From the NCBI GenBank assembly GCA_963402885.1, contig OY727096.1, positions 20,193,820 to 20,257,819 on the forward strand: a stretch of 64,000 nt of DNA, read 5' to 3'. The stretch is from Antedon bifida. Taxonomy: Eukaryota > Echinodermata > Crinoidea > Comatulida > Antedonidae. This document shows positions 7,369 through 64,000 of this stretch, in pieces (positions within the stretch are counted from its first letter, which is position 1; each line of letters opens with the position of its first letter). The notes beneath the pieces were generated by a model that saw nothing but the letters and a program-made list of their open reading frames with translations, was not told where the DNA came from and made no database searches. The position numbers and the translations under genes were made by a program.

Positions 7369-7378
7369 TTTTTTTTTT

Positions 7379-24726: not shown

Positions 24727-26305
24727 TAGGTGATCATTTAGAATAAAATGATCACCTATTGTTATTGTATAAAATCTTTATTGTTTTTTTCTTTCTTTTT
24801 ATTGTTTCTGTACACTATTTTGTGTAACAATTATCTCAAAAAGTTTAATGTCAATGATTACAAAAATTTCAGAATATCTTTCAAATAATATAACTTAATC
24901 CTAATAAGCTTTCCAGCGTGATCACTCATCCGTGACGACATTTATACGCCATTTTGCGAAATCACATTATCAATCATATCTCCATAATTCATTATCACAT
25001 ATTAATGAAATTCACTACACGTAAACTTCAGATCAAGGGTAAAAATATTAGCAAATAAAAACGCACGCGCACGTAGGTTCATGCGCGTGATATCGCGCGT
25101 TAAAAATTTAAAACGCTCAAAATTAAGTTTTGATCAATTTAGAGCATGAATTAGGCCATTTGCGTGTTTTAAAAAATTACTGCGCAAAAATGCGTTTTTG
25201 CGCGCGCGATACTTAAAAAGCGTAAAAAATATAAATTTTTTTTACAAATCTCATTCTACTCACCATCCTTAGTACATTCACCAAATATGAGTCAGTTCCG
25301 ACTTAAAATAACGCTATATGAGCACGTTAAAAATGACAAAATGCGCACATTAATTTTACAAAAGTTCTGAAAATGGTGAAAAATAGGTCTTTTTTAAAAT
25401 GAAAATAATTCTTCAGAATGCAAGATGACCCCCGATTTTTTTAACTTATTCTGGAAGCCATTGAGTTGTAGATATGAATTCATGTACACATTTTACGTAC
25501 AAAATGTTTTGACGTCATCAAATGGCCACTTGAATTTAAAAATTAGGATTTGTTATCTTTTTGTGTAGATTATCACATTCAACAGAGCGCATCTTGGTTA
25601 TGTGTGCTCGAATTTCGCACAACTTTCAGTATGTGCTTGCTTAATTAATTATCTTTATCATGAGTTGACACTATCTTCATTTTAATGACGTCATCACGCG
25701 TAAAAACTTGAATAACGTAGGCCGTGTAATTTCACCTTCGCAGTAAATTTGAATATCTTACAGCTCTTCAGAATTGAAGGTTACCTTGATGATTATAATT
25801 TATTATGAAAGCTGATGAAATGTAGATATTAATTCATATAAAAATTAAGCCTATCGGATGTTGTGACGTTAACATATGGCCAGTTGAAGTGAAAAAGTAG
25901 TTTTTTCATATTTTTCGTCAAAGTTATACACAATTCAAAGAGCGCGCACAGCGCTTCTACGTGCCAAATTTTTTTCCAAATCTTATATTTTTTTCCTCAA
26001 TTAATTATCTTTCGAAATCGTCATCTTAAAGTTTAGTTTGATAACGTCATCATGCCAAAAAATTAGAACATGTGTGTCCCGTAATTTCACCTATGCTACA
26101 CTGTATATAGATATACAGTATATACTGTACATATTGTATATGGCATATAGGCACAACTCAGCACTATAAGCATATAATAGGATGGCATACATCAACATTT
26201 TCCGATCGTATGTTAACGTACGTGCATGTTTAAAAAAAATTAATTTCAGTAAAATGATAAAAATGATCACCTATAATTCGTCAAAGTGACGAATTAAATT
26301 CTAGT
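24727..26305 (+). mobile_element. type A element A4
   Basis: A complete unit of 1579 bp whose left flank is single-copy DNA. Private variants include CCAAATATGAGTCAG and GCTATATGAGCACG. Its tract is shortened to GTTTTTTTCTTTC, like that of A20. Confidence 0.87.
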
Positions 26306-27953
26306 TAGGTGATCATTTAGCATTCTAAATGATCACCTAACTAGAATTTAATTCGTCACTTTGACGAATTATAGGTGATCATTTTTATCATTTTACTGAA
26401 ATTAATTTTTTATTGTTATTGTATGAAATCTTTATTTTTTTTCTTTTTATTGTTTCTGTACACTATTTTGTGTAACAATTATCTCAAAAAGTTTAATGTC
26501 AATGATTACCAACATTTCAGAATATCTTTCAAATAATATAACTTAATCCTAATAAGCTTTCCAGCATGATCACTCATCCGTGACGACATTTATACGCCAT
26601 TTTGCGAAATCACATTATCAATCATATCTCCATAATTCATTATCACATATTAATGAAATTCACTACACGTAAACTTCAGGTCAAGGGTAAAAATATTAGC
26701 AAATAAAAACGCACGCGCACGTAGGTTCATGCGCGTGATATCGCGCGTTAAAAATTTAAACCGCTCAAAATTAAGTTTTGATCAATTTAGAGCATGAATT
26801 AGGCCATTTGCGTGTTTCAAAAAACTACTGCGCAAAAATGCGTTTTTGCGCGCGCGATACTTAAAAAGCGTAAAAAATATGAATTTTTTTTACAAATCTC
26901 ATTCTACTCACTATCCTTAGTACATTCACCAAATTTGAGTCAGTTCCGACTTAAAATAACGCTATACGAGCACGTTAAAAATGACAAAATGCGCATATTA
27001 ATTTTACAAAAGTTCTGAAAATGGTGAAAAATAGGTCTTTTTTAAAATGAAAATAATTCTTCAGAATGCAAGATGACCCCCGATTTTTTTAACTTATTCT
27101 GGAAGCCATTGAGTTGTAGATATGAATTCATGTACACACTTTACGTACAAAATGTTTTGACGTCATCAAATGGCCACTTGAATTTAAAAATTAGGATTTG
27201 TTATCTTTTTGTGTAGATTATCACATTCAACAGAGCGCATCTTGGTTATGTGTGCTCGAATTTCGCACAACTTTCAGTATGTGCTTGCTTAATTAATTAT
27301 CTTTATCATGAGTTGACACTATCTTCATTTTAATGACGTCATCACGCGTAAAAACTTGAATAACGTAGGCCGTGTAATTTCACCTTCGCAGTAAATTTGA
27401 ATATCTTACAGCTCTTCAGAATTGAAGGTTACCTTGATGATTATAATTTATTATGAAAGCTGATGAAATGTAGATATTAATTCATATAAAAATTAAGCCT
27501 ATCGGATGTTGTGACGTTAACATATGGCCAGTTGAATTGAAAAAGTAGTTTTTTCAAATTTTTCGTCAAAGTTATACACAATTCAAAGAGCGCGCACAGC
27601 GCTTCTACGTGCCAAATTTTTTTCAAAATCTTATATTTTTTTGCTCAATTAATTATCTTTCGAAATTGTCATCTTAAAGTTTAGTTTGATAACGTCATCA
27701 TGCCAAAATATTAGAACATGTGTGTCCCGTAATTTCACCTATGCTACACTGTATATAGATATACAGTATATACTGTACATATTTTATATGGCATATAGGC
27801 ACAACTCAGCACTATAAGCATATAATAGGATGGCATACATCAACATTTTCCGATCGTATGTTAACGTACGTGTATGTTTAAAAAAAATTAATTTCAGTAA
27901 AATGATAAAAATGATCACCTATAATTCGTCAAAGTGACGAATTAAATTCTAGT
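26306..27953 (+). mobile_element. type A element A5 with an altered left end
   Basis: The left palindrome has the loop AGCATTCT. An inverted 71-bp right-end fragment follows it before the TTGTTATTGTATGAAATC segment resumes. The body is otherwise normal and shares GTTGAATTGAAAAAG and TTTTTTCAAATTTTTCG with A15. Confidence 0.82.
26340..26410 (-). repeat. inverted right-end fragment inside a left end
   Basis: Read on the minus strand, this is the last 71 bases of a type A element: AAAAATTAATTTCAGTAAAA through the right hairpin to CTAGT. It is the only minus-oriented piece of this family in the window. It makes a head-to-head pair with the right end of A4 (ending 26305) across a palindrome. Confidence 0.9.
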
Positions 27954-29483
27954 TATTATTATTTTTTTTTTTCTTTTTATTGTTTCTGTACACTATTTTG
28001 TGTAACAATTATCTCAAAAAGTTTAATGTCAATGATTACAAAAATTTCAGAATATCTTTCAAATAATATAACTTAATCCTAATAAGCTTTCCAGCGTGAT
28101 CACTCATCCGTGACGACATTTATACGCCATTTTGCGAAATCACATTATCAATCATATCTCCATAATTCATTATCACATAATAATGAAATTCACTACACGT
28201 AAACTTCAGATCAAGGGTAAAAATATTAGCAAATAAAAACGCACGCGCACGTAGGTTCATGCGCGTGATATCGCGCGTTAAAAATTTAAAACGCTCAAAA
28301 TTAAGTTTTGATCAATTTAGAGCATGAATTAGGCCATTTGCGTGTTTCAAAAAATTACTGCGCAAAAATGCGTTTTTGCGCGCGCGATACTTAAAAAGCG
28401 TAAAAAACATGAATTTTTTTTACAAATCTCATTCTACTCACCATCCTTAGTACATTCACCAAATTTGAGTCAGTTCCGACTTAAAATAACGCTATACGAG
28501 CACGTTAAAAATGACAAAATGCGCACATTAATTTTACAAAAGTTCTGAAAATGGTGAAAAATAGGTCTTTTTTAAAATGAAAATAATTCTTCAGAATGCA
28601 AGATGACCCCCGATTTTTTTAACTTATTCTGGAAGCCATTGAGTTGTAGATATGAATTCATGTACACATTTTACGTACAAAATGTTTTGACGTCATCAAA
28701 TGGCCACTTGAATTTAAAAATTAGGATTTGTTATCTTTTTGTGTAGATTATCACATTCAACAGAGCGCATCTTGGTTATGTGTGCTCGAATTTCGCACAA
28801 CTTTCAGTATGTGCTTGCTTAATTAATTATCTTTATCATGAGTTGACACTATCTTCATTTTAATGACGTCATTACGCGTAAAAACTTGAATAACGTAGGC
28901 CGTGTAATTTCACCTTCGCAGTAAATTTGAATATCTTACAGCTCTTCAGAATTGAAGGTTACCTTGATGATTATAATTTATTATGAAAGCTGATGAAATG
29001 TAGATATTAATTCATATAAAAATTAAGCCTATCGGATGTTGTGACGTTAACATATGGCCAGTTGAAGTGAAACAGTAGTTTTTTCATATTTTTCGTCAAA
29101 GTTATACACAATTCAAAGAGCGCGCACAGCGCTTCTACGTGCCAAATTTTTTTCCAAATCTTAAATTTTTTTGCTCAATTAATTATCTTTCGAAATTGTC
29201 ATCTTAAAGTTTAGTTTGATAACGTCATCATGCCAAAAAATTAGAACATGTGTGTCCCGTAATTTCACCTATGCTACACTGTATATAGATATACAGTATA
29301 TACTGTACATATTGTATATGGCATATAGGCACAACTCAGCACTATAAGCATATAATAGGATGGCATACATCAACATTTTCCGATCGTATGTTAACGTACG
29401 TTCATGTTTAAAAAAAATTTATTTCAGTAAAATGATAAAAATGATCACCTATAATTCGTCAAAGTGACGAATTAAATTCTAGT
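27954..29483 (+). mobile_element. type A element A6, left palindrome missing
   Basis: It starts directly after CTAGT with TATTATTATTTTTTTTTT and a complete body. No unpaired left end lies upstream to account for it, so its left end is lost. Carries the private ATTACGCG change in the second GACGTCATCACGCG word. Confidence 0.82.
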
Positions 29484-31061
29484 TAGGTGATCATTTAGAA
29501 TTCTAAATGATCACCTATTGTTATTGTATAAAATCTTTATTATTTTTTTTCTTTTTATTGTTTCTGTACACTATTTTGTGTAACAATTATCTCAAAAAGT
29601 TTAATGTCAATGATTACCAAAATTTCAGAATATCTTTCAAATAATATAACTTAATCCTAATAAGCTTTCCAGCGTGATCACTCATCCGTGACGACATTTA
29701 TACGCCATTTTGCGAAATCACATTATCAATCATATCTCCATAATTCATTATCACATATTAATGAAATTCACTACACGTAAACTTCAGATCAAGGGTAAAA
29801 ATATTAGCAAATAAAAACGCACGCGCACGTAGGGTCATGCGCGTGAAATCGCGCGTTAAAAATTCAAAACGCTCAAAATTAAGTTTTGATCAATTTAGAG
29901 CATGAATTAGGCCATTTGCATGTTTCAAAAAATTACTGCGCAAAAATGCGTTTTTGCGCGCGCGATACTTAAAAAGCGTAAAAAATATGATTTTTTTTTA
30001 CAAATCTCATTCTACTCACCATCCTTAGTACATTCACCAAATTTGAGTCAGTTCCGACTTAAAATAACGCTATACGAGCACGTTAAAAATGACAAAATGC
30101 GCACATTAATTTTACAAAAGTTCTGAAAATGGTGAAAAATAGGTCTTTTTTAAAATGAAAATAATTCTTCAGAATGCAAGATGACCCCCGATTTTTTTAA
30201 CTTATTCTGGAAGCCATTGAGTTGTAGATATGAATTCATGTACACATTTTACGTACAAAATGTTTTGACGTCATCAAATGGCCACTTGAATTTAAAAATT
30301 AGGATTTGTTATCTTTTTGTGTAGATTATCACATTCAACAGAGCGCATCTTGGTTATGTGTGCTCGAATTTCGCACAAATTTCAGTATGTGCTTGCTTAA
30401 TTAATTATCTTTATCATGAGTTGACACTATTTTTATTTTAATGACGTCATCACGCGTAAAAACTTGAATAACGTAGGCCGTGTAATTTCACCTTCGCAGT
30501 AAATTTGAATATCTTACAGCTCTTCAGAATTGAAGGTTACCTTGATGATTATAATTTATTATGAAAGCTGATGAAATGTAGATATTAATTCATATAAAAA
30601 TTAAGCCTATCGGATGTTGTGACGTTAACATATGGCCAGTTGAAGTGAAAAAGTAGTTTTTTCATATTTTTTGTCAAAGTTATACACAATTCAAAGAGCG
30701 CGCACAGCGCTTCTACGTGCCAAATTTTTTTCAAAATCTTATATTTTTTTGCTCAATTAATTATCTTTCGAAATTGTCATCTTAAAGTTTAGTTTGATAA
30801 CGTCATCATGCCAAAAAATTAGAACATGTGTGTCCCGTAATTTCACCTATGCTACACTGTATATAGATATACAGTATATACTGTACATATTGTATATGGC
30901 ATATAGGCACAACTCAGCACTATAAGCATATAATAGGATGGCATACATCAACTTTTTCCGATCGTATGTTAACGTACGTGTATGTTTAAAAAAAAATAAT
31001 TTCAGTAAAATGATAAAAATGATCACCTATAATTCGTCAAAGTGACGAATTAAATTCTAGT
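29484..31061 (+). mobile_element. type A element A7
   Basis: A complete unit with the perfect-palindrome left end (AGGTGATCATTTAGAATTCT and complement). Variants include GTAGGGTCATGCGCGTGAAA and GCATGTTTCAAAAAATTAC, which lean toward the divergent A' subfamily. Confidence 0.86.
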
Positions 31062-32610
31062 TAGGTGATCATTTAGAATAAAATGATCACCTATTGTTAT
31101 TGTATCAAATCTTTATTCTTCTTCTTATTAGGTGATCATTTAGAATAAAATGATCACCTATTGTTATTGTATAAAATCTTTATTATTATTTTTCTTTTTT
31201 TTTTTCTTTTTATTGTTTCTGTACACTATTTTGTGTAACAATTATCTCAAAAAGTTTAATGTCAATGATTACAAAAATTTCAGAATATCTTTCAAATAAT
31301 ATAACTTAATCCTAATAAGCTTTCCAGCGTGATCACTCATCCGTGACGACATTTATACGCCATTTTGCGAAATCACATTATCAATCATATCTCCATAATT
31401 CATTATCACATATTAATGAAATTCACTACACGTAAACTTCAGATCAAGGGTAAAAATATTAGCAAATAAAAACGCACGCGCACGTAGGTTCATGCGCGTG
31501 ATATCGCGCGTTAAAAATTTAAAACGCTCAAAATTAAGTTTTGATCAATTTAGAGCATGAATTAGACCATTTGCGTGTTTCAATAAATTACTGCGCAAAA
31601 ATGCGTTTTTGCGCGCGCGATACTTAAAAAGCGTAAAAAATATGAATTTTTGTTACAAATCTCATTCTACTCACCATCCTTAGTACATTCACCAAATTTG
31701 AGTCAGTTCCGACTTAAAATAACGCTATACGAGCACGTTAAAAATGACAAAATGCGCATATTAATTTTACAAAAGTTCTGAAAATGGTGAAAAATAGGTC
31801 TTTTTTAAAATGAAAATAATTCTTCAGAATGCAAGATGACCCCCGATTTTTTTAACTTATTCTGGAAGCCATTGAGTTGTAGATATGAATTCATGTACAC
31901 ACTTTACGTACAAAATGTTTTGACGTCATCAAATGGCCACTTGAATTTAAAAATTAGGATTTGTTATCTTTTTGTGTAGATTATCACATTCAACAGAGCG
32001 CATCTTGGTTATGTGTGCTCGAATTTCGCACAACTTTCAGTATGTGCTTGCTTAATTAATTATCTTTATCATGAGTTGACACTATCTTCATTTTAATGAC
32101 GTCATCACGCGTAAAAACTTGAATAACGTAGGCCGTGTAATTTCACCTTCGCAGTAAATTTGAATATCTTACAGCTCTTCAGAATTGAAGGTTACCTTGA
32201 TGATTATAATTTATTATGAAAGCTGATGAAATGTAGATATTAATTCATATAAAAATTAAGCCTATCGGATGTTGTGACGTTAACATATGGCCAGTTGAAG
32301 TGAAAAAGTAGTTTTTTCATATTTTTCGTCAAAGTTATACACAATTCAAAGAGCGCGCACAGCGCTTCTACGTGCCAAATTTTTTTCCAAATCTTATATT
32401 TTTTTGCTCAATTAATTATCTTTCGAAATTGTCATCTTAAAGTTTAGTTTGATAACGTCATCATGCCAAAAAATTAGAACATGTGTGTCCCGTAATTTCA
32501 CCTATGCTACACTGTATATAGATATACAGTATATACTGTACATATTGTATATGGCATATAGGCACAACTCTATGGAACGCCTCCTCTGCCTTCAGTTCAC
32601 ATTTATCATG

Positions 32611-32904
32611 CAGTACACACCAATGGTCATGCAGTACACACCAATCGTCATGCAGTACCCACCAATGGTCATGCAGTACACACCAATCGTCATGCAGTAC
32701 ACACCAAACATCATTCAGTACACACCAATCGTCATGCAGTACACACCAAAAATCATGCAGTACACACCAAACGTCATGCAGTACACACCAATCGTCATGC
32801 AGTACACACCAATGGTCATGCAGTACACACCAAACATCATGCAGTACACACCAAACATCATGCAGTACACACCAATCGTCATGCAGTACACACCAATCGT
32901 CATG
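32611..32904 (+). repeat. left-arm 21-bp repeats, 14 units
   Basis: The unit is CAGTACACACCAATCGTCAT plus G. Variants change the ATCGTC part to ATGGTC, AACATC, AACGTC or AAATC. The reading frames across it are repeat translations only. Confidence 0.95.
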
Positions 32905-33246
32905 CAGTCAAATATTGCGTAATTTATACCGCCACCTATCGACAAAATCCAATATCACGTGACGTTTATTAGACGACTGTAAAACTAAGGCTATTCAAAC
33001 TGTATACTACAGCAACTCACGATGTCTACTACTACATCGCACGTGCTTTATGACTAAAATGGCTCGCAAAACTATTAAAGCAATCTTGGAATCTATAGGA
33101 CGTAGGCGCGGCTAGGAGGCCATTGTAATCATTGAATTCCATAAAAGAAATAATAAATAGTCTTAGTTTTACAGCCGCCTAATAAACGTCACGTGATATT
33201 CGATTTTGTCGATAGGTGGCGGTATAAATTACGCAATATTTGACTG

Positions 33247-33519
33247 CATGACGATTGGTGTGTACTGCATGACGATTGGTGTGTACTGCATGATGTTTGG
33301 TGTGTACTGCATGACCATTGGTGTGTACTGCATGGCGATTGGTGTGTACTGCATGACGATTGGTGTGTACTGCATCATGTTTGGTGTGTACTGCATGACG
33401 ATTGGTGTGTACTGCATGATGTTTGGTGTGTACTGCATGACGATTGGTGTGTACTGCATGACGATTGGTGTGTACTGCATGACGATTGGTGTGTACTGCA
33501 TGACGATTGGTGTGTACTG
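33247..33519 (-). repeat. right-arm 21-bp repeats, 13 units
   Basis: The inverted version of the left array, with one unit fewer and a different order of variant units. The two arms have therefore changed independently since the element formed. Confidence 0.95.
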
Positions 33520-34413
33520 CATGATAAATGTGAACTGAAGGCAGAGGAGGCGTTCCATACAACTCAGCACTATAAGCATATAATAGGATGGCATACATCA
33601 ACATTTTCCGATCGTATGTTAACGTACGTGCATGTTTAAAAAAAATTAATTTCAGTAAAATGATAAAAATGATCACCTATAATTCGTCAAAGTGACGAAT
33701 TAAATTCTAGTTCTTATTATTTATTTCTCTCTGTACAAATTTGTGTAACAATTATCTCAAAAAGTTAAATGTCAATGATCACAAATTTTTCACAATGTCT
33801 TTTAAATACTTTAACTTAACCATAATAAGCTTTTCAGTGTGATCACTCAACCGTGACGTCATTAATACGCGATTTTGTGAAATCACACTATCAATCATAT
33901 CTCCATAACTCTTTATCACATATCAATCAAATTCACTACACGTAAACTTCAGGTCAAGGGTAAAAATATAAGCAAATAAAAACTTGCGTGTTTCAAGGTC
34001 ATGCACCTATGCTACACTGTATATAGATACAGTATATACTGTACATATTGTATATGACATATAATAGGCACAACTCAGCACTATAAGCATATATAATAGG
34101 ATGGTATACATCAACATTTTCTGATCGTATGTTAACGTACGTGCATGTTTAAAAAATGTGTGGTTCCCGTAATTTCACCTATGTTACACTGTATATAGAT
34201 ATACTGTACACTGTACTGTATAGAGTATATATTCTATGACACATAATAGGTACAACTCAGCACTATAAGCATATGCATCATGTCGTAGGATGGCGTACAT
34301 CAACTTTTTATGATCGTATGTTAACGTACGTGCATGTTTAAAAAATGTTAATTTCATTAAAATGATAAAAATGATCACCTATAATTCGTCAAAGTGACGA
34401 ATTAAATTCTAGT

Positions 34414-35981
34414 TAGGTGATCATTTAGAATAAAATGATCACCTATTGTTATTGTATGAAATCTTTATTCTTCTTTCTGTACACTATTTTGTGTAACAAA
34501 TATCTCAAAAAGTTAAATGTCAATGATCACAAAAATTTCACAATATCTTTCAAATACTGTAACTTAATCCTAATAAGCTTTTCAGCGTGATCACTCAACT
34601 GTGACGTCATTTATACGCCATTTTGTGAAATCACATTATCAATTATATCTCCATAATTAATCATCACATAATAATGAAATTCTACTACACGTAAACTTCG
34701 GGTCAAGGGTAAAAATATTAGCAAATAAAAACTTGCGCGTTTCAAGGTCATGCGTGTGAAATCACGCGTTAAAAATTGAAAAAGCTTGAAATTAAGTTTT
34801 GATCAATTTAGAGCATGAATTAGGCCATTTGCACGTTTTAAAAAATTACTGCGCAAAAACACGTTTTTGCGCGCGCTGTACTTAAAAAGCGTAAAAAATA
34901 CGAATTTTTTGTACAAATCGCATTCTACTCACCATCCTTAGTACATTTACTAAACTTGAGTCCGTTCCGACTTAAAATAACGCTATACGAGGAGGTTAAA
35001 AATGACAAAATGCGCACATTAATTGCATAAAAGTGCTGAAAATGGTGAAAAATAAGGCATTTTTAAAATGAAAATAATTCTTCAGAATGCACGATGACCC
35101 CCAATTTTTTTAACTTATTCTGGAAGTCATTGAGTTGTAGATATGAATTCATGTACACATTTTACGTACAAAATGTTGTGACGTCATCAAATGGCCACTT
35201 GAATTTAAAATTAAGTTTTTTTTCTCTTTCGTCGTATTTTATCACATTCAATAAAACGCATCTCTGTTATTTTGTGCCCGATTTTCGCTCAAATTTTAGT
35301 ATGTGATTGCACAATTAATTGACTTTCTCATGACTTGCCACTATTTTTGTTTTTATGACGTCATCACGCGTAAAAACTTGAATAACGTAGGTCGTGTAAT
35401 TTCACCTTCGCCGTAAATTTGAATATCTTACAGCTCTTCATAATTGAAGGTTACCTTGATGATTATAATTTATTATGGAAGCTGATGAAATGTAGATATG
35501 AATTCATATAAAAATCAAGCCTATCGGATGTTGTGACGTTAACATATGGCCAGTTGAAGTTTAAAAGTAGTTTTTTCATCTTTTTCGTCAAAGTTATACA
35601 AATGTCAAAGAGCGCGCACAGCGCTTCTACGTGCCAAATTCTCTTCCAATTCTTATATTTATTTGCTCAATTCATTATCTTTCGAAATTGTCATCTTCAA
35701 ATTTATTTTGATAATTCCATCATACCAAAAAATTAGAACATGATGTGTGTCCCGTAATTTCACCTATGCTACACTGTATATAGATATACATTATATACTG
35801 TACATATTGTATATGGCATATAATAGGCTCAACTCAACGCTATAAGCGTATAATAGGATGGCATACATCAACATTTTCTGATCGTATGTTAACGTACGTG
35901 CATGTAAAAAAAAAAATAATTTCATTAAAATGATAAAAATGATCACCTATAATTCGTCAAAGTGACGAATTAAATTCTAGT
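34414..35981 (+). mobile_element. type A' element A10
   Basis: A complete divergent unit: short tract (ATTCTTCTTTCTGTACAC), GTGACGTCATTTATACGCC and AAGTGCTGAAAATGG. The hairpin GCGCAAAAA-CACG-TTTTTGCGC keeps the stem and changes the loop. The right half resembles A21. Confidence 0.85.
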
Positions 35982-40752: not shown

Positions 40753-40818
40753 TAGGTGATCATTTAGAATAAAATGATCACCTATTGTTATTGTATAAAA
40801 TCTTTATTATTATTTTTT
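40753..40818 (+). mobile_element. type A left end only (stub)
   Basis: A left palindrome and tract up to ATTATTATTTTTT, followed directly by the left end of A13. Its body is probably one of the palindrome-less bodies between 45631 and 50227. Confidence 0.8.
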
Positions 40819-43985: not shown

Positions 43986-43991
43986 TATTAT

Positions 43992-50227: not shown

Positions 50228-53200
50228 TAGGTGATCATTTAGAATTCTAAATGATCACCTATTGTTATTGTATGAAATCTTTATTTTTAGGTGATCATTT
50301 AGAATAAAATGATCACCTATTGTTATTGTATAAAATCTTTATTGTTTTTTTCTTTCTTTTTATTGTTTCTGTACACTATTTTGTGTAACAATTATCTCAA
50401 AAAGTTTAATGTCAATGATTACAAAAATTTCAGAATATCTTTCAAATAATATAACTTAATCCTAATAAGCTTTCCAGCGTGATCACTCATCCGTGACGAC
50501 ATTTATACGCCATTTTGCGAAATCACATTATCAATCATATCTCCATAATTCATTATCACATATTAATGAAATTCACTACACGTAAACTTCAGATCAAGGG
50601 TAAAAATATTAGCAAATAAAAACGCACACGCACGTAGGTTCATGCGCGTGATATCGCGCGTTAAAAATTTAAAACGCTCAAAATTAAGTTTTGATCAATT
50701 TAGAGCATGAATTAGGCCATTTGCGTGTTTAAAAAATTACTGCGCAAAAATGCGTTTTTGCGCGCGCGACACTTAAAAAGCGTAAAAAATATGAATTTTT
50801 TTTACAAATCGCATTCTACTCACCATTCTTAGTACATTCACCAAATTTGAGTCAGTTCCGACTTAAAACAACGCTATACGAGCAGGTTAAAAATGACAAA
50901 ATGCGCAAATTAATTGCATCAAAGTGCTGAAAATGGTGAAAAATAAGGCCTTTTTAAAATGAATATAAATCTTCAGAATGGCAGGTGACCCCTAATTTTT
51001 TTAACTTATTCGGGAAGCCATTGGGTTGTAGATACATATTCATGTACACATTAGACGTACAAAATGGTATGACGTCATCAAATGGCCACTTGAATTTAAA
51101 AATTAGTAATTTTTATCTTTTTGTGTGGGTTATCACATTCAGTAGAGCGCATCTCCGTTATTTGAGCCCGATTTTCGCAAAAATTTTAGAATGTGCTTGC
51201 TCAATTGATTATCTTTCTCATGGGTTGTAAACATTTTTATTTTGATGACGTCATCACGCGTAAAAACTTGAATAACCTAGGTCGTGTAATTTTAGCTACA
51301 CCATACATTTGAATATCTAATAGCTCTTCAGAATTAAAGGTGACCTTGAAGATTATAACATATTATGAAAGCTGTTGAAATGTAGATATGAATTCATATA
51401 AAAATTAAGCCTATCGGATGTTGCGATGTTATAATATGGCCAGTTGAAGTTAAAACGTAGTTTTTAGATTTCTTTAGTCGAAGTTATACAAATTTCAATG
51501 AGCGCGCATTGCGCTTCTACGTATCAAATTCTCTTCCAATCTTTATATTTATTTGCTCAATTCATTATCTTTCGAAATTGTCATCTTCGAGTTTATTTTG
51601 ATAATTCCATCATACCAACAAATTTGAACATGATGTGGGTCCCATAATTTTACCTATGCTACACTGTATATAGATATACAGTATATACTGTATATATTGT
51701 ATATGACACATAATAGGTACAACTCAGCACTATGTGTATATGCATCATGTCATAGGATGGCGTACATCAGCTTTTTACGATCGTATGTTAACGTACGTGC
51801 ATGTTTAAAAAATGTTAATTTCATTAAAATGATAAAAATGATCACCTATAATTCGTCAAAGTGACGAATTAAATTCTAGTTTTTCTTTTTATTGTTTCTG
51901 TACACTATTTTGTGTAACAATTATCTCAAAAAGTTTAATGTCAATGATTACAAAAATTTCAGAATATCTTTCAAATAATATAACTTAATCCTAATAAGCT
52001 TTCCAGCGTGATCACTCATCCGTGACGACATTTATACGCCATTTTGCGAAATCACATTATCAATCATATCTCCATAATTCATTATCACATATTAATGAAA
52101 TTCACTACACGTAAACTTCAGATCAAGGGTAAAAATATTAGCAAATAAAAACGCACGCGCACGTAGGTTCATGCGCGTGATATCGCGCGTTAAAAATTTA
52201 AAACGCTCAAAATTAAGTTTTGATCAATTTAGAGCATGAATTAGGCCATTTGCGTGTTTCAAAAAATTACTGCGCAAAAATGCGTTTTTGCGCGCGCGAT
52301 ACTTAAAAAGCGTAAAAAATATGATTTTTTTACAAATCTCATTCTACTCACCATCCTTAGTACATTCACCAAATTTGAGTCAGTTCCGACTTAAAATAAC
52401 GCTATACGAGCACGTTAAAAATGACAAAATGCGCACATTAATTTTACAAAAGTTCTGAAAATGGTGAAAAATAGGTCTTTTTTAAAATGAAAATAACTCT
52501 TCAGAATGCAAGATGACCCCCGATTTTGTTAACTTATTCTGGAAGCCATTGAGTTGTAGATATGAATTCATGTACACATTTTACGTACAAAATGTTTTGA
52601 CGTCATCAAATGGCCACTTGAATTTAAAAATAAGGATTTGTTATCTTTTTGTGTAGATTATCACATTCAACAGAGCGCATCTTGGTTATGTGTCCTCGAA
52701 TTTCACACAACTTTCATTATGTGCTTGCTTAATTAATTATCTTTATCATGAGTTGACACTATTTTCATTTTAATGACGTCATCACGCGTAAAAACTTGAA
52801 TAACGTAGGCCGTGTAATTTCACCTTCGCAGTAAATTTGAATATCTTACAGCTCTTCAAAATTGAAGGTTACCTTGATGATTATAATTTATTATGAAAGC
52901 TGATGAAATGTAGATATTAATTCATATAAAAATTAAGCCTATCGGATGTTGTGACGTTAACATATGGCCAGTTGAAGTGAAAAAGTAGTTTTTTTATATT
53001 TTTCGTCCAAGTTATACACAATTCAAAGAGCGCGCACAGCGCTTCTACGTGCCAAATTTTTTTCCAAATCTTATATTTTTTTGCTCAATTAATTATCTTT
53101 CGAAATTGTCATCTTAAAGTTTAGTTTGATAACGTCATCATGCCAAAAAATTAGAACATGTGTGTCCCGTAATTTCACCTATGCTACACTGTATATAGAT

Positions 53201-53393
53201 ATACAGTATATACTGTACATATTGTATATGGCATATAGGCACAACTCAGCACTATAAGCATATAATAGGATGGCATACATCAACATTTTCCGATCGTATG
53301 TTAACGTACGTGCATGTTTAAAAAAAATTAATTTCAGTAAAATGATAAAAATGATCACCTATAATTCGTCAAAGTGACGAATTAAATTCTAGT
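50228..53393 (+). mobile_element. type A element A19, interrupted by A20
   Basis: The left end 50228-50287 ends in TATGAAATCTTTATTTT and the body resumes at 51881 as TTTTCTTTTTATTG. Joined, the tract is T8-C, equal to A14. The body ends with CTAGT at 53389-53393. Confidence 0.87.
50288..51880 (+). mobile_element. chimeric type A/A' element A20 nested in A19
   Basis: The first ~500 bp match the common A type (GTGACGACATTTATACGCC at about 50494, CACGTAGGTTCATGCGCG). From about 50811 it matches A' copies A13 and A26 (AAATCGCATTC, ACGAGCAGGTT, GGTGACCCCTAATTT). The switch lies between about 50770 and 50812. Both ends are normal. Confidence 0.85.
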
Positions 53394-54957
53394 TAGGTGA
53401 TCATTTAGAATAAAATGATCACCTATTGTTATTGTATCAAATCTTTATTTTTCTTTTTATTGTTTCTGTACACTATTTTGTGTAACAGATATCTCAAAAA
53501 GTTTAATGTCAATGATTACCAAAATTTCAGAATATCTTTCAAATGATATAACTTAATCCTAATAAGCTTTCCAGCGTGATCACTCATCCGTGACGTCATT
53601 TATACGCCATTTTGTGAAATCACATTATCAATCATATCTCCATAATTCATTATCACATATTAATGAAATTCACTACACGTATACTTCAGGTCAAGGGTAA
53701 AAATATTAGCAGATAAAAAGTTGCGCGTTTCAAGGTCATGCACGTGAAATCGCGCGTTAAAAATTTAGAACGCTCAAAATTAAGTTTTGATCAATTTAGA
53801 GCATGAATTAGGCCATTTGCGCGTTTCAAAAAATTACTGCGCAAAAACACGTTTTTGTGCACGCGATACTTAGACAGCGTAAAAAATAAAATTTGATGTA
53901 TAAATCACAATCTACTCACAATTCTTAGTACATTCACCGATTTTGAGTCCATTCCGACTTAAGATAACGCTATACGAGCACGTTAAAAATGACAAAATGC
54001 GCAAATTAATTGCATCAAAGTGCTGAAAATGGTGAAAAATAAGGCATTTTTAAAATGAAAATAACTCTTCAGAATGCAAGATGACCCCCATTTTTTTTAA
54101 CTTATTCGGGAAGCCATTGAGTTGTAGATATGAATTCATGTACACATTTGACGTAGAAAATGTTGTGACATCATCAAATGGCCACTTGAATTTAAAATTA
54201 AGTTTTTTTTCTCTTTTGTCATATTTTATCACATTCAATAGAACGCATCTCTAATAATTTGTTCCTGATTTTCGATCAAATTTTAGTATGTGATTTCTCA
54301 ATTAATTGACTTTCTCGTGACCTGCCACTATTTTTATTTTGATGACGTCATCACGCGTAAAAACTTGAATAACGTAGGTCGTGTAATTTCACCTTCGCCG
54401 TAAATTTGAATATCTACAGCTCTTCAGAATTAAAGGTTACCTTGATAATTATAATTTATTATGAAAGCTGATGAAATGTAGATATGAATTCATATAAAAA
54501 TTAAGCCTATCGGATGTTGTGACGTTAACATATGGCCAGTTGAAGTTAAAAAGTAGTTTTTTCATCTTTTTCGTCAAAGTTATACAAATTTCAAAGAGCG
54601 CGCACAGCGCTTCTACGTGCCAAATTCTCTTCCAATTCTTATATTTATTTGCTCAATTCATTATCTTTCGAAATTGTCATCTTCGAGTTTATTTTGATAA
54701 TTCCATCATACCAACAAATTAGAACATGATGTGTGTCCCGTAATTTCACCTATGCTACACTTTATATAGATACATTATATACTGTACATATTGTATATGG
54801 CATAATAATAGGCACAACTCAGCACTAAAGCGTATAATAGGATGGCATACATCAACATTTTCTGATCGTATGTTAACGTATGTGCAAACAAATTATTTCG
54901 GTAAAATGATAAAAATGATCACCTATAATTCGTCAAAGTGACGAATTAAATTCTAGT
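53394..54957 (+). mobile_element. type A' element A21
   Basis: A complete divergent unit with TTGCGCGTTTCAAGGTCATG and a right half like A10 (TTCTCTTCCAATTCTTATAT). The right end is shortened near 54880 (ACGTATGTGCAAACAAATTA). Confidence 0.85.
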
Positions 54958-55012
54958 TAGGTGATCATTTAGAATAAAATGATCACCTATTGTTATTGTA
55001 TAAAATCTTTAT

Positions 55013-58000
55013 TAGGTGATCATTTAGAATAAAATGATCACCTATTGTTATTGTATAAAATCTTTATTATTATTTTTTTTTTTATTGGTTTTCCGCAACG
55101 AAGTTGCAGGAAAACCTCTTGTGATTGTACGAAATCATCATCATCATCTTTTTTTTCATCTTCTTTCTTTCTGTATGATTTTTGTGTAACGCTTTTCTCT
55201 GAAACTTGCAAACATAACATTTTGTGAACTATGTTAACATTTTGACATTTATGTAACGTCGTCAAGCGAAGCTTTTCATGATGTTTACAATTGCGCAACG
55301 TGACGTACGCGCGATTTAACGATTTTCTCGTATTTAACATAGGTCAAAAACCAAATAACATTTTAAATTGAAACTTTGCACAAGTTTAATTTATATCATG
55401 CGCTAACTTTCTGTTGAACAAAAATTGCGTGTTTTACACAAAGTTACGCGTGCACGCGCATTTAAAATTTCAAAATGCGCAAAATTAATTTCTAATCAAC
55501 TTTCTACGCGTTTCATGTCGTTTTAAGCATGTAAACAATTTCCACGCGTGCGCAAATTTTTACGTGTGCGGTGCGCACGTAGCATTAAAAACATATTTTT
55601 TTCGCGTGATTTATGTTTTTCCAGCCTTTTCTAGTAATTTTACCAACTTTTAAACAATTTCGACTTACATTAACGTCATACGAGCACGTGGAATTGGACA
55701 ATTTGCGCGAGTTTTTGTTGAAAAAGTTAAAAAATTCGTCAAAATTATGCCTTTTTTTAAACAGTCGTAATTTCTAAACTGCACGGTCAACTTTTTGTGG
55801 ATGACATTTTCTGGAAGTTAATGAGTTGTAGATATCGGATCATGTATTAATATGGCTAACCGGACATTGTGACGTCATCGTATGGCCACGCTAATATAAA
55901 ATTTAGGATTTTTGTATCTTTCGTCATAGCTCATCACATTTAATAGAGCGCATCTCCACTTATCCGTTTTCCATTTTCACCCAAATTTTGATATTGTCTA
56001 GGTCAATCAACTGTCTTTCGCATGAATTAGAAATATTTTAATTTTTTTGACGTCATCATTCCTAAAAATTTAAATTACGTGTGGCATTAATTTCATCTTT
56101 ACAGTAAATTTTAATCTGTTATAGCTCGTAAGAATAAAATTTGATAATCACGATTAAAACGTTTTATGGAAGCTATTGGATTGTAGATACGAAATCATGT
56201 GAAAATTTTGCCAATCGGATGTTGTGACGTCATCATATGGCCAGTTAAATGAAAAAAGTCGTATTTTCATCTTTTGCGTCATAATTCATTACATTTAAAA
56301 GAGCGCGCATCAATATTTCACGTATTCAAATTTCTTCTAGACGTTAATATGTTGTTGCTGAGATAATTTCCTTCCGAAATTGCTACCTTCGCATTTCATT
56401 TTAAAACCGTCAACATGTTAAAATTTGTAATAAATAGCGGGTCCCGTAATTTCACCTATTCTACACTGTGTGATATGGATACAGATTATACTGTGTATAC
56501 TATATATGAATCGAAATAATAGAATTCAGCAATAACAACATATCATATTCTTCAGTTCAGGTCATAATGCCAACGTGAACACTTCCTTTTGTCCTCAACC
56601 TATCCCTTAATGTTAAAAGGTACGTCGTTACACGTTCATGTTGCACCACTTGCGCGGCGGAAAACCAAACTCGTCAAAGTGACGAGTTACATGTCTAGTT
56701 ATTTTTTTTCTTTTTATTGTTTCTGTACACTATTTTGTGTAACAATTATCTCAAAAAGTTTAATGTCAATGATTACAAAAATTTCAGAATATCTTTCAAA
56801 TAATACAACTTAATCCTAATAAGCTTTCCAGCGTGATCACTCATCCGTGACGACATTTATACGCCATTTTGCGAAATCACATTATCAATCATATCTCCAT
56901 AATTCATTATCACATATTAATGAAATTCACTACACGTAAACTTCAGATCAAGGGTAAAAATATTAGCAAATAAAAACGCACGCGCACGTAGGTTCATGCG
57001 CGTGATATCGCGCGTTAAAAATTTAAAACGCTCAAAATTAAGTTTTGATCAATTTAGAGCATGAATTAGGCCATTTGCGTGTTTCAAAAAATTACTGCGC
57101 AAAAATGCGTTTTTGCGCGCGCGATACTTAAAAAGCGTAAAAAATATGAATTTTTTTTACAAATCTCATTCTACTCACCATCCTTAGTACATTCACCAAA
57201 TTTGAGTCAGTTCCGACTTAAAATAACGCTATACGAGCACGTTAAAAATGACAAAATGCGCACATTTATTTTACAAAAGTTCTGAAAATGGTGAAAAATA
57301 GGTCTTTTTTAAAATGAAAATAATTCTTCAGAATGCAAGATGACCCCCGATTTTTTTAACTTATTCTGGAAGCCATTGAGTTGTAGATATGAATTCATGT
57401 ACACATTTTACGTACAAAATGTTTTGACGTCATCAAATGGCCACTTGAATTTAAAAATTAGGATTTGTTATCTTTTTGTGTAGATTATCACATTCAACAG
57501 AGCGCATCTTGGTTATGTGTGCTCGAATTTCGCACAACTTTCAGTATGTGCTTGCTTAATTAATTATCTTTATCATGAGTTGACACTATCTTCATTTTAA
57601 TGACGTCATCACGCGTAAAAACTTGAATAACGTAGGCCGTGTAATTTCACCTTCGCAGTAAATTTGAATATCTTACAGCTCTTCAAAATTGAAGGTTACC
57701 TTGATGATTATAATTTATTATGAAAGCTGATGAAATGTAGATATTAATTCATATAAAAATTAAGCCTATCGGATGTTGTGACGTTAACTTATGGCCAGTT
57801 GAAGTGAAAAAGTAGTTTTTTCATATTTTTCGTCAAAGTTATACACAATTCAAAGAGCGCGCACAGCGCTTCTACGTGCCAAATTTTTTTCCAAATCTTA
57901 TATTTTTTTGCTCAATTAATTATCTTTCGAAATTGTCATCTTAAAGTTTAGTTTGATAACGTCATCATGCCAAAAAATTAGAACATGTGTCCCGCAATTT

Positions 58001-58219
58001 CACCTATGCTACACTGTATATAGATATACAGTATATACTGTACATATTGTATATGGCATATAGGCACAACTCAGCACTATAAGCATATAATAGGATGGCA
58101 TACATCAACATTTTCCGATCGTATGTTAACGTACGTGCATGTTTAAAAAAAAATTAATTTCAGTAAAATGATAAAAATGATCACCTATAATTCGTCAAAG
58201 TGACGAATTAAATTCTAGT
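55013..58219 (+). mobile_element. type A element A23, middle of the nest
   Basis: The left end and tract (55013-55085) are followed by B3, then by the body 56700-58219, which has the TACAACTTAATCC / CACATTTATTTT variants of A16 and A18. Confidence 0.85.
55086..56699 (+). mobile_element. type B element B3, innermost of the nest
   Basis: A complete type B unit with its own palindrome and right end (CTAGT ending 56699), close to B2. It lies in the T tract of A23. Confidence 0.86.
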
Positions 58220-59746
58220 TATTATTTTTTTTTTTCTTTTTATTGTTTCTGTACACTATTTTGTGTAACAATTATCTCAAAAAGTTTAATGTCAATGATT
58301 ACAAAAATTTCAGAATATCTTTCAAATAATATAACTTAATCCTAATAAGCTTTCCAGCGTGATCACTCATCCGTGACGACATTTATACGCCATTTTGCGA
58401 AATCACATTATCAATCATATCTCCATAATTCATTATCACATATTAATGAAATTCACTACACGTAAACTTCAGATCAAGGGTAAAAATATTAGCAAATAAA
58501 AACGCACGCGCACGTAGGTTCATGCGCGTGATATCGCGCGTTAAAAATTTAAAACGCTCAAAATTAAGTTTTGATCAATTTAGAGCATGAATTAGGCCAT
58601 TTGCGTGTTTCAAAAAATTACTGCGCAAAAATGCGTTTTTGCGCGCGCGATACTTAAAAAGCGTAAAAAACATGAATTTTTTTTACAAATCTCATTCTAC
58701 TCACCATCCTTAGTACATTCACCAAATTTGAGTCAGTTCCGACTTAAAATAACGCTATACGAGCACGTTAAAAATGACAAAGTGCGCACATTAATTTTAC
58801 AAAAGTTCTGAAAATGGTGAAAAATAGGTCTTTTTTAAAATGAAAATAATTCTTCAGAATGCAAGATGACCCCCGATTTTTTTAACTTATTCTGGAAGCC
58901 ATTGAGTTGTAGGTATGAATTCATGTACACATTTTACGTACAAAATGTTTTGACGTCATCAAATGGCCACTTGAATTTAAAAATTAGGATTTGTTATCTT
59001 TTTGTGTAGATTATCACATTCAACAGAGCGCATCTTGGTTATGTGTGCTCGAATTTCGCACAACTTTCAGTATGTGCTTGCTTAATTAATTATCTTTATC
59101 ATGAGTTGACACTATCTTCATTTTAATGACGTCATCACGCGTAAAAACTTGAATAACGTAGGCCGTGTAATTTCACCTTCGCAGTAAATTTGAATATCTT
59201 ACAGCTCTTCAGAATTGAAGGTTACCTTGATGATTATAATTTATTATGAAAGCTGATGAAATTTAGATATTAATTCATATAAAAATTAAGCCTATCGGAT
59301 GTTGTGACGTTAACATATGGCCAGTTGAAGTGAAAAAGTAGTTTTTTCATATTTTTCGTCAAAGTTATACACAATTCAAAGAGCGCGCACAGCGCTTCTA
59401 CGTGCCAAATTTTTTTCCAAATCTTATATTTTTTTGCTCAATTAATTATCTTTCGAAATTGTCATCTTAAAGTTTAGTTTGATAACGTCATCATGCCAAA
59501 AAATTAGAACATGCGTGTCCCGTAATTTCACCTATGCTACACTGTATATAGATATACAGTATATACTGTACATATTGTATATGGCATATAGGCACAACTC
59601 AGCACTATAAGCATATAATAGGATGGCATACATCAACATTTTCCGATCGTATGTTAACGTACGTGCATGTTTAAAAAAAATTTATTTCAGTAAAATGATA
59701 AAAATGATCACCTATAATTCGTCAAAGTGACGAATTAAATTCTAGT

Positions 59747-61332
59747 TAGGTGATCATTTAGAATGCTAAATGATCACCTATTGTTATTGTATGAAATCTT
59801 TATTATTATTTTTTTTTTTTTTCTTTTTATTGTTTCTGTACACTATTTTGTGTAACAATTATCTCAAAAAGTTTAATGTCAATGATTACAAAAATTTCAG
59901 AATATCTTTCAAATAATATAACTTAATCCTAATAAGCTTTCCAGCGTGATCACTCATCCGTGACGACATTTATACGCCATTTTGCGAAATCACATTATCA
60001 ATCATATCTCCATAATTCATTATCACATATTAATGAAATTCACTACACGTAAACTTCAGATCAAGGGTAAAAATATTAGCAAATAAAAACGCACGCGCAC
60101 ATAGGTTCATTCGCGTGATATCGCGCGTTAAAAATTTAAAACGCTCAAAATAAAGTTTTGATCAATTTAGAGCATGAATTAGGCCATTTGCGTGTTTCAA
60201 AAAATTACTGCGCAAAAATGCGTTTTTGCGCGCGCGATACTTAAAAAGCGTAAAAAATATGAATTTTTTTTACAAATCTCATTCTACTCACCATCCTTAG
60301 TACATTCACCAAATTTGAGTCAGTTCCGACTTAAAATAACGCTATACGAGCACGTTAAAAATGACAAAATGCGCACATTAATTTTACAAAAGTTCTGAAA
60401 ATGGTGAAAAATAGGTCTTTTTTAAAATGAAAATAATTCTTCAGAATGCAAGATGACCCCCGATTTTTTTAACTTATTCTGGAAGCCATTGAGTTGTAGA
60501 TATGAATTCATGTACACATTTTACGTACAAAATGTCTTGACGTCATCAAATGGCCACTTGAATTTAAAAATTAGGATTTGTTATCTTTTTGTGTAGATTA
60601 TCACATTCAACAGAGCGCATCTTGGTTATGTGTGCTCGAATTTCGCACAACTTTCAGTATGTGCTTGCTTAATTAATTATCTTTATCATGAGTTGACACT
60701 ATCTTCATTTTAATGACGTCATCACGCGTTAAAACTTGAATAACGTAGGCCGTGTAATTTCACCTTCGCAGTAAATTTGAATATCTTACAGCTCTTCAGA
60801 ATTGAAGGTTACCTTGATGATTATAATTTATTATGAAAGCTGATGAAATGTAGATATTAATTCATATAAAAATTAAGCCTATCGGATGTTGTGACGTTAA
60901 CATATGGCCAGTTGAAGTGAAAAAGTAGTTTTTTCATATTTTTCGTCAAAGTTATACACAATTCAAAGAGCGCGCACAGCGCTTCTACGTGCCAAATTTT
61001 TTTCCAAATCTTATATTTTTTTGCTCAATTAATTATCTTTCGAAATTGTCATCTTAAAGTTTAGTTTGATAACGTCATCATGCCAAAAAATTAGAACATG
61101 TGTGTCCCGTAATTTCACCTATGCTACACTGTATATAGATATACAGTATATACTGTACATATTGTATATGGCATATAGGCACAACTCAGCACTATAAGCA
61201 TATAATAGGATGGCATACATCAACATTTTCCGATCGTATGTTAACGTACCGTGCATGTTAAAAAAATTAATTTCAGTAAAATGATAAAAATGATCACCTA
61301 TAATTCGTCAAAGTGACGAATTAAATTCTAGT
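59747..61332 (+). mobile_element. type A element A24
   Basis: A complete 1586-bp unit. Its CACGCGCA hairpin is damaged on both arms (CGCACATAGG, TTCGCGTG), and GTTAACGTACCGTGC has an extra C. Confidence 0.86.
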
Positions 61333-62920
61333 TAGGTGATCATTTAGAATAAAATGATCACCTATTGTTATTGTATAAAATCTTTATTATTATTTTTCTT
61401 TTTTTTTTTCTTTTTATTGTTTCTGTACACTATTTTGTGTAACAATTATCTCAAAAAGTTTAATGTCAATGATTACAAAAATTTCAGAATATCTTTCAAA
61501 TAATATAACTTAATCCTAATAAGCTTTCCAGCGTGATCACTCATCCGTGACGACATTTATACGCCATTTTGCGAAATCACATTATCAATCATATCTCCAT
61601 AATTCATTATCACATATTAATGAAATTCACTACACGTAAACTTCAGATCAAGGGTAAAAATATTAGCAAATAAAAACGCACGCGCACGTAGGTTCATGCG
61701 CGTGATATCGCGCGTTAAAAATTTAAAACGCTCAAAATTAAGTTTTGATCAATTTAGAGCATGAATTAGGCCATTTGCGTGTTTCAATAAATTACTGCGC
61801 AAAAATGCGTTTTTGCGCGCGCGATACTTAAAAAGCGTAAAAAATATGAATTTTTTTTACAAATCTCATTCTACTCACCATCCTTAGTACATTCACCAAA
61901 TTTGAGTCAGTTCCGACTTAAAATAACGCTATACGAGCACGTTAAAAATGACAAAATGCGCATATTAATTTTACAAAAGTTCTGAAAATGGTGAAAAATA
62001 GGTCTTTTTTAAAATGAAAATAATTCTTCAGAATGCAAGATGACCCCCGATTTTTTTAACTTATTCTGGAAGCCATTGAGTTGTAGATATGAATTCATGT
62101 ACACACTTTACGTACAAAGTGTTTTGACGTCATCAAATGGCCACTTGAATTTAAAAATTAGGATTTGTTATCTTTTTGTGTAGATTATCACATTCAACAG
62201 AGCGCATCTTGGTTATGTGTGCTCGAATTTCGCACAACTTTCAGTATGTGCTTGCTTAATTAATTATCTTTATCATGAGTTGACACTATCTTCATTTTAA
62301 TGACGTCATCACGCGTAAAAACTTGAATAACGTAGGCCGTGTAATTTCACCTTCGCAGTAAATTTGAATATCTTACAGCTCTTCAGAATTGAAGGTTACC
62401 TTGATGATTATAATTTATTATGAAAGCTGATGAAATGTAGATATTAATTCATATAAAAATTAAGCCTATCGGATGTTGTGACGTTAACATATGGCCAGTT
62501 GAAGTGAAAAAGTAGTTTTTTCATATTTTTCGTCAAAGTTATACACAATTCAAAGAGCGCGCACAGCGCTTCTACGTGCCAAATTTTTTTCCAAATCTTA
62601 TATTTTTTTGCTCAATTAATTATCTTTCGAAATTGTCATCTTAAAGTTTAGTTTGATAACGTCATCATGCCAAAAAATTAGAACATGTGTGTCCCGTAAT
62701 TTCACCTATGCTACACTGTATATAGATATACAGTATATACTGTACATATTGTATATGGCATATAGGCACAACTCAGCACTATAAGCATATAATAGGATGG
62801 CATACATCAACATTTTCCGATCGTATGTTAACGTACGTGCATGTTTAAAAAAAATTAATTTCAGTAAAATGATAAAAATGATCACCTATAATTCGTCAAA
62901 GTGACGAATTAAATTCTAGT
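61333..62920 (+). mobile_element. type A element A25
   Basis: A complete 1588-bp unit of the A2/A3/A9 variant group (CAATAAATTAC, GCGCATATTAA, ACACACTTTACG). Confidence 0.86.
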
Positions 62921-64000
62921 GAGAAATTGTTTTTGTAAAACAAAAACTGTTTCTTCGCAATTTCTTTCTGTACAGATTTTGTGTAACAAATATCTCAAAA
63001 AGTTTAATGTCAATGATTACCAAAATTTCTGAATGTCTTTCAAATACTTTAACTTAGTCCTAATAAGCTTTTCAGCGTGATCACTCATCCGTGACGTCAT
63101 TTAGACGCCATTTTGTGAAATCACATTATCAATCATATCCCCATAATTCATTATCACATATTAATGAAATTCACTACACGTAAACTTTAGGTCAAGGGTA
63201 AAAATATTAACAAATAAAAACACGCGCACACGTAGGGTCATGCGCGTGAAATCGCGCGTTAAAAATTTAAAAAGCTCAAAATTAAGTTTTGATCAATTTA
63301 GAGCATGAATTAGGCCATTTGCGTTTTTCAAAAAATTACTGCGCAAAAACACGTTTTTGCGCGTGCGTATATAGAAAGCGTAAAAAATAACAATTTTTTG
63401 TACTAATTCCATTCTACTCATCTTCTTTAGTACATTCACTAAATTTGAGTCAGTTCCAACTTAAAATAACGCTATACGAGCAGGTTAAAAATGACAAAAT
63501 GCGCAAATTAATTGCATCAAAGTGCTGAAAATGGTGAAAAATAAGGCCTTTTTAAAATGAATATAAATCTTCAGAATGGCAGGTGACCCCTAATTTTTTT
63601 AACTTATTCGGGAAGCCATTGGGTTGTAGATACATATTCATGTACACATTAGATGTACAAAATGGTATGACGTCATCAAATGGCCACTTGAATTTAAAAA
63701 TTAGTAATTTTTATCTTTTTGTGTGGGTTATCACATTCAATAGAGCGCATCTCCGTTATTTGAGCCCGATTTTCGCAAATATTTTAGAATGTGCTTGCTC
63801 AATTGATTATCTTTCTCATGGGTTGTAAACATTTTTATTTTGATGACGTCATCACGCAAAAAAAACTTGAATAAACTAGGTCGTGTAAGTTTAGCTACAC
63901 CATACATTTGAATATCTAATAGCTCTTCAGAATTAAAGGTGACCTTGAAGATCATAACTTATTATAAAAGCTGTTGAAATGTAGATATGAATTCATATAA
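62921..64000 (+). mobile_element. type A' core with a new left palindrome, A26, cut by the window end
   Basis: Directly after CTAGT of A25 comes a different left end: AGAAATTGTTTTTGT (62922-62936), loop AAA, ACAAAAACTGTTTCT (62940-62954), 13 of 15 pairs. The T/TTA tract is absent and the core starts TTTCTTTCTGTACAG. The body is A' type, close to A13. The right end lies beyond 64000. Confidence 0.75.

Follow-up and report, generated by a model that had tools for sequence, protein, structure and literature searches.

Nested arrays of a HINE-like element in the genome of Antedon bifida point to serial insertion of the element into its own family

Introduction

HINE, or DINE-1-like, elements carry a 5' palindromic inverted repeat that recurs near the 3' end, together with a 3' palindrome; they insert into T-rich targets without modifying the target, lack coding capacity, and have been reported in clusters (PMC4067079). 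Cg_HINE, from the Pacific oyster, has HINE ends, a short variable microsatellite behind its 5' repeat, and a preference for oligo-T (PMC7492417). In Helitron2 elements, the terminal inverted repeats are asymmetric and each end carries a hairpin; Helitron-1N1_CRe inserts between TTTT and T/C (PMC3627910). Nested self-insertion has been described for the FoHeli Helitrons of Fusarium, where it is credited with multiple 5' termini, and three tandem copies in Metarhizium acridum were read as either a double insertion into the 5' end or replication of a circle (PMC5148889). Here, we describe a 64,000-nucleotide stretch of the Antedon bifida genome (the window; C9:20193820-20257819 of a 315.6-Mb assembly in 27 contigs) that holds an array of one small mobile element, which we call the A element, whose copies adjoin one another or sit within one another's left ends. 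The array was very probably built by serial insertion of this HINE-like, rolling-circle element into its own family.

Results

The A element is noncoding and ~1.6 kb long (1,588 bp in copy U25). A 32-bp left palindrome is followed by a short, variable tract rich in T and then by a body of ~1.5 kb; the element closes with a right end of 47 bp, in which the left repeat recurs inverted, together with a hairpin. This right end is identical in 24 of 25 copies, and the last carries one mismatch. Three structural features correspond to those of HINEs. The left hairpin (TAGGTGATCATTT) starts at base 1 (z -4.66), like a HINE 5' palindromic repeat. The inverted repeat (AAATGATCACCTA) recurs in all 25 right ends, 32 nucleotides from the 3' end (counted by reading), which is slightly nearer than the 38 to 60 bp quoted for mite HINEs. 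Lastly, the 3' hairpin has a 10-bp stem that stops 9 nucleotides before the end (z -4.34). The element also behaves like a HINE at sites inside its own family that can be rejoined (see below), which are T-rich and lack a target duplication; those that match uninterrupted copies do so base for base, and a few flanks are C or G. Stop-to-stop frames of at least 120 amino acids number eight in the window, one being a sulfotransferase frame outside the array and the other seven running through 21-bp repeats, in keeping with the lack of coding capacity in HINEs. In both termini and target, the sequence matches a HINE, that is, a nonautonomous Helentron.

We also considered canonical Helitrons (Helitron1), which have 5'-TC and 3'-CTRR termini, an A|T target, and no 5' hairpin. 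This assignment was rejected: the A element begins 5'-TAGG with a hairpin and has a T|T target, and only the CTAG before its final T agrees with CTRR. It resembles FoHeli elements in behavior, in that nested insertion gives multiple 5' termini, but its ends differ and we do not claim membership in that family.

The window (G+C content ~31%, no N) contains 23 A-type left ends (TAGGTGATCATTT...AAATGATCACCTA) and 25 A-type right ends, all on the plus strand, which reproduces exactly the counts of an earlier, sequence-only reading of this DNA. The sole minus-strand copy of the right end that we found there comes from a local fold-back (26339-26385). The six double left ends named in that reading are all present (15717/15772, 31062/31129, 40753/40819, 43992/44058, 50228/50288, and 54958/55013), as are the palindrome-less bodies that it placed downstream: eight bodies begin directly after a right end, without a left end of their own (U03 at 17360, U06 at 27954, U09 at 33712, U16 at 45631, U17 at 47157, U18 at 48688, U20 at 51881, and U23 at 58220). 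The array that it drew at 24727-64000 is real, but the boundary at 64000 is not; the array passes the right edge of the window by ~21 kb, with its last right end at window-equivalent 84770, and totals ~60 kb. The units of the window are as follows.

15717-15771 (+): outer left end and tract start of U03 (opens)
15772-17359 (+): U02, complete inner copy inside U03
17360-18898 (+): postponed body and right end of U03 (closes 15717); body identical to U02
24727-26305 (+): U04, complete copy, left edge of the array
26306-27953 (+): U05, copy whose left end is an enlarged fold-back
27954-29483 (+): U06, body without a left end (orphan)
29484-31061 (+): U07, complete copy
31062-31128 (+): outer left end of U09, TATCAAATC, TTC tail
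31129-33711 (+): U08, inner copy carrying a foreign 21-bp-repeat element at ~32571-33558
33712-34413 (+): postponed body of U09, divergent and internally deleted (closes 31062)
34414-35981 (+): U10, complete copy, divergent subtype
35982-37566 (+): U11, complete copy
37567-40752 (+): U12, tract split by a B-type relative at 37631-39237
40753-40818 (+): outer left end; its partner is U17 by strict order, U18 if stub 43986 is its own opening
40819-42409 (+): U13, inner copy
42410-43985 (+): U14, inner copy adjoining U13
43986-43991 (+): stub, TATTAT; joined to the U17 head, it equals the U03 head exactly
43992-44057 (+): outer left end of U16
44058-45630 (+): U15, inner copy
45631-47156 (+): postponed body of U16 (closes 43992); rejoined tract is that of U22
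47157-48687 (+): postponed body of U17; its head continues stub 43986
48688-50227 (+): postponed body of U18, with marker bases in common with U16 and U22; orphan in strict order
50228-50287 (+): outer left end of U20, TATGAAATC
50288-51880 (+): U19, inner copy, mosaic of a U04-like left and a U13-like right part
51881-53393 (+): postponed body of U20; T4 plus T4 gives T8, as in intact copies
53394-54957 (+): U21, complete copy, TATCAAATC subtype
54958-55012 (+): outer left end of U23
55013-58219 (+): U22, inner copy, tract split by a B-type relative at 55086-56699
58220-59746 (+): postponed body of U23 (closes 54958); rejoined tract is that of two intact copies outside the window
59747-61332 (+): U24, complete copy
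61333-62920 (+): U25, complete copy, reference unit
62921-64000 (+): C-type relative with a different left end; its right end is at window-equivalent 64481, and the array goes on to ~84770

If one copy had inserted into the tract of another, dropping the inner copy must restore a normal outer tract (the element being taken as T-AGG...CTAG-T). Joining left end 50228 to U20 yields an exact T8 C tract, as in four other copies of the window, and joining 43992 to U16 yields exactly the tract of U22, which is itself split by a B-type copy. The stub at 43986-43991 combines with the U17 head to reproduce that of U03, and this is the sole fit among 64 head pairs. Overall, 18 of the 56 possible pairings in the window fit a known tract class, and a last-in-first-out order fits 5 of 7, the maximum of any assignment (P = 0.006). 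In that test the stub is a separate opening, preceded by an inferred TTTAT, and 40753 therefore pairs with U18; the resulting tract is U22-like and longer by one ATTA-T8 repeat. Marker bases in the bodies group U16, U18, and U22 together, and likewise U01, U06, U11, and U23; the body tree is weakly supported, with 1 of 16 inner branches starred.

The pair test was extended to three loci: the C9 array (the window plus the 21 kb to its right), a minus-strand array with the same grammar in C7:12518000-12607999 (31421-70797 of the reversed stretch; the C7 array), and an isolated nested pair at C1:5.66 Mb, which rejoins exactly. Sixteen pairs were set by hand under one rule, namely, that a left-less body closes the latest open left end and that a stub extends a left end. 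One truncated left end in the C7 array was counted as an opening; it takes body H56910, which stands outside the 16. U01, whose tract holds two foreign copies, was excluded as a reference, as were two short arrays without double left ends at the edges of the C7 stretch, and the rearranged interior of 69239-75440 was treated as one block. In the stretches that were parsed, all 16 stacked openings have a later left-less body. Half of the pairs (8/16) were exact for both left-end subtype and tract when compared with 36 intact tracts. Permutation of the 20 left-less heads gave a mean of 1.2 and a maximum of 6 exact pairs, with 0 of 100,000 permutations reaching 8; with the tract alone, 8 of 16 were again exact (P = 8e-5).

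Individual cases in the C7 array illustrate the order. Behind a triple left end there come an ordinary body and two left-less ones, and at unit 49060 the stack is five deep (strict order, by reading). Across 3.2 kb, rejoining recovers every base of one left end that is interrupted at CACCTATTGT|TATTGTATAAAATC; this break lies in TTGT|TATTG and not in the T tract. The tail of left end 48990 and its postponed head together make the tract of unit 39373, and the body is 99.3% identical to that unit over the first 450 bp (next best, 91.8%). Left end 42589 closes 22 kb further on, at a body nearest (94.4%) to intact unit 63098; this unit has the same left-end subtype as 42589 and a similar tract, and only one other intact unit has a tract of this kind. 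Two further pairs were read afterwards, of which that in a small array at C1:31.59 Mb is exact by reading and that at C7:9.73 Mb is not. Collectively, an order beyond chance is only suggested by the window alone but is clear with the other loci. The pairing of host left end and postponed body that the sequence-only reading had proposed as a check thus holds beyond chance once independent loci are added, and the exact rejoining across loci supports the cause that it had put forward, repeated insertion behind the left end of another copy.

Several observations weigh against this interpretation. Eight of the 16 pairs are inexact, which may be expected if T tracts change length but does not prove it, and the pair at C7:9.73 Mb has one ATT in excess. 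In three exact pairs (H67652, H75440, and H37821), the nearest intact body has a different left-end subtype, and across all pairs the subtype agrees with the nearest body in only 8 of 16, a modest excess (shuffled mean 4.35; P = 0.026). Three bodies find no left end under strict order (U06 and U18 in the C9 array, H69288 in the C7 array), and H56910 finds only a truncated one; the left end that strict order assigns to H37821 is of a subtype that better suits the H69288 body. For the window array by itself, the tendency of double and left-less units to be adjacent reaches weak significance (P = 0.020), and closure of all doubles is not significant (P = 0.38). The four-gamete test fails for 43 of 253 site pairs, showing that bodies recombine and that homologous recombination has acted as well. 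Left ends seem to be lost now and then, as the C7 array retains a truncated piece of one between 53722 and 53787.

We then examined where copies sit. Thirteen of the 23 left ends abut the preceding right end at zero spacer, seven lie behind another left end or a split-tract stub (the six doubles, plus 43992 behind TATTAT), and three are in other DNA; spacers from a right end to the next left end within the array are 0 in 13 cases and 6 in one. The base to the left of the left end is always T (23/23), and the base to the right of the right end is T in 24 of 25 copies, U25 having G. A-element tracts in the window also host three B-type relatives and one D-type relative; one of the former and the latter occupy T|C sites. 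Thus, the T|T target of the earlier reading applies to most but not all sites. Where rejoining is exact, insertion occurred without duplication or loss of target, beside a T and mainly at T|T. A BLAST search with U25 found no A body in the window interrupted by A-, B-, or D-type families; the U08 body is interrupted by the unrelated 21-bp-repeat element, and to the right of the window insertions outside tracts do occur. The U25 tract contains 26 TT versus 3 AA. Because TT is available at these sites on one strand and rare on the other, all copies of an array share one orientation. The single orientation that the earlier reading had regarded as forced does not extend across the genome, however, as one 90-kb stretch elsewhere contains arrays of both orientations. 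T-richness can roughly explain the nested sites only, and the 13 exact abutments need a separate explanation. Directly after the left hairpin, TTGT|TATTG is split at two loci, L036:549 (where the 2.5 kb upstream yielded no left end) and 39337 of the C7 array, which suggests a second preferred target.

Neighboring bodies are 93.99% identical, versus 94.19% after shuffling, and the share of shuffles reaching the observed value is 0.59 (0.74 for core copies). Inner U08 and outer U09 are of different subfamilies, at 75.6% identity, and some abutting bodies (U09/U10, U10/U11, and U20/U21) are merely 77 to 91% identical. Most units are distinguished by private changes. U19 is a mosaic whose left ~450 bp are U04-like and whose remainder is U13-like. 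Because neighbors are as unlike as random pairs and abutting copies can be of different subfamilies, the array did not arise mainly from crossing-over or from the copying of one circle.

Other features lie in or near the array. At 26306-26411, ~106 bp of a junction between a right and a left end are repeated in inverted orientation (98% identical), forming a large hairpin (z -23) next to orphan body U06, and the loop of the left palindrome is reversed relative to sister copies; from its sequence, this looks like snap-back template switching at the hairpin. The element at 32571-33558 in the U08 body is a separate, palindromic-looking one with opposed 21-bp repeat arrays around a unique core. 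The only frame of at least 120 amino acids outside the 21-bp repeats, at 13665-15059, encodes 464 amino acids with a sulfotransferase domain (PF00685, 2.7e-18). Within the U01 tract, at 5739-8983, lie two relatives, one B-type and one D-type (D left end AGTTATCCGC), and these families have the right hairpin CGTCAAAGTGACG and a CTAGT end in common. C-type relatives at 62921-64000 and at window-equivalent 64482, 78529, 80080, and 83212 differ in their left end (GAGAAATTG or GTAAAATTG) but not in their right end; these five, and two more in the C7 array, directly adjoin a right end.

Discussion

We propose that the element, T-AGGTGATC...CTAG-T, inserts without target duplication at two kinds of site. 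Insertion into the T-rich stretch between left hairpin and body splits the host into a left end and a postponed body, whereas insertion at the exact outer ends of resident copies gives head-to-tail abutment. Stacked left ends would occasionally be lost, leaving orphan bodies. A Helentron Rep/Helicase from elsewhere in the genome may mobilize the copies in a rolling-circle mode; T-rich, easily melted DNA may draw the nested insertions, and resident ends, which Rep would cut anyway, may serve as acceptors for abutting copies (Rep-mediated end targeting). Every insertion adds a new tract and new ends, and an array thereby increases the target that it offers.

Tandem repeats invite other explanations. 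Unequal crossing-over or segmental duplication of a few founder units, with double left ends as by-products, could draw on the recombination seen among bodies and in U19, but neighbors are no more alike than random, inner and outer copies may differ in subfamily, and exact rejoining is not predicted; we regard this origin as highly unlikely. Only slightly better is the case for rolling-circle read-through (missed termination) or multiround copying of a circle into concatemers, with left-less bodies as aberrant starts. The junctions between right and left ends are as exact as those of Helraiser circles (PMC4778049), and tandem Helitrons have been attributed in print to bypassed termination (PMC4067079). 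This model, which we consider very improbable, would nevertheless produce near-identical neighbors, which were not seen, and does not predict rejoined tracts. The truncated C7 left end and the orphan bodies show that left ends can seemingly disappear, as would be needed if slippage at the hairpin-prone left end made the doubles and independent hairpin deletions made the left-less bodies. Three of the six doubles in the window combine different subtypes, however (31062/31129, 40753/40819, and 50228/50288), and rejoined tracts are exact far beyond chance, making this the least plausible account of all.

Near-identical 1.5-kb units are hard to assemble, and our analysis was made from the assembly. 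Yet contigs are chromosome-sized, most units carry private changes, and the same grammar appears at separate loci, including the C1:5.66 Mb pair, the only copy cluster found in its 10-kb stretch; an assembly artifact is thus hardly to be expected. The strongest competitor concerns the 13 abutments only, where circles of different copies could have integrated by homologous recombination in resident bodies while the nested cases remain true insertions. Such integration would also give an exact junction and the same orientation, in line with the zero spacer at 13 of 13 and with the mosaic, recombining bodies. Abutting bodies as little alike as those listed above would be a poor substrate, and C-type relatives, with another left end, abut too. 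Because Helitron circles have such precise junctions (PMC4778049), we grant this explanation a real, if minor, chance for the abutments.

Seen here at base resolution, serial insertion into the family's own copies can be a route by which a rolling-circle-type element builds long repeat arrays without relying on crossing-over. The order of pieces in such arrays reads as nested brackets that record the order of insertion, and the arrays are a clean substrate for the question of how Helentrons choose their targets. A more speculative idea, which we hold only tentatively and think is probably wrong, is that the hairpin-body stretch and the exact outer ends are an evolved, self-directed landing pad by which the family steers new copies into its own. 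If so, genes would be spared, the target would be recreated each time, and arrays would grow autocatalytically into satellite-like blocks without unequal crossing-over, leaving a readable last-in-first-out record of insertion.

The A element shares its anatomy, target, and clustering with HINE/DINE-1-like elements; the available text on these mentions clusters and adjacent insertions, but not a nested order with rejoinable tracts as found here (PMC4067079). It has the ends, the variable stretch behind the 5' repeat, and the oligo-T preference of Cg_HINE, although the tandem repeats there are internal to one element and the word "nested" is absent from the main text (PMC7492417). Similarly, end hairpins and asymmetric terminal inverted repeats are shared with Helitron2, in the main text of which "tandem" does not occur (PMC3627910). 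FoHeli elements differ: few cases are reported, the elements are ~5 to 11 kb, the target of FoHeli1 and 2 is TNAT|A, and arrays of tens of kilobases are not described in the parts consulted (PMC5148889). Its doubled 5' ends are thought to move as a unit (PMC5148889), whereas here all stacked openings (16/16) precede a later left-less body. A literature search that reached few subscription journals, and papers in part, revealed no account of long arrays with multilevel nested order. The suggestion of the sequence-only reading that no such grammar had been described must nevertheless be softened, as published work on Fusarium Helitrons already describes nested self-insertion that yields multiple 5' ends (PMC5148889). 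Thus, self-insertion, multiple 5' ends, the HINE anatomy, and a T-rich target were known before, and what is new in Antedon bifida is the scale and depth of the nesting and the fact that it can be tested base by base.

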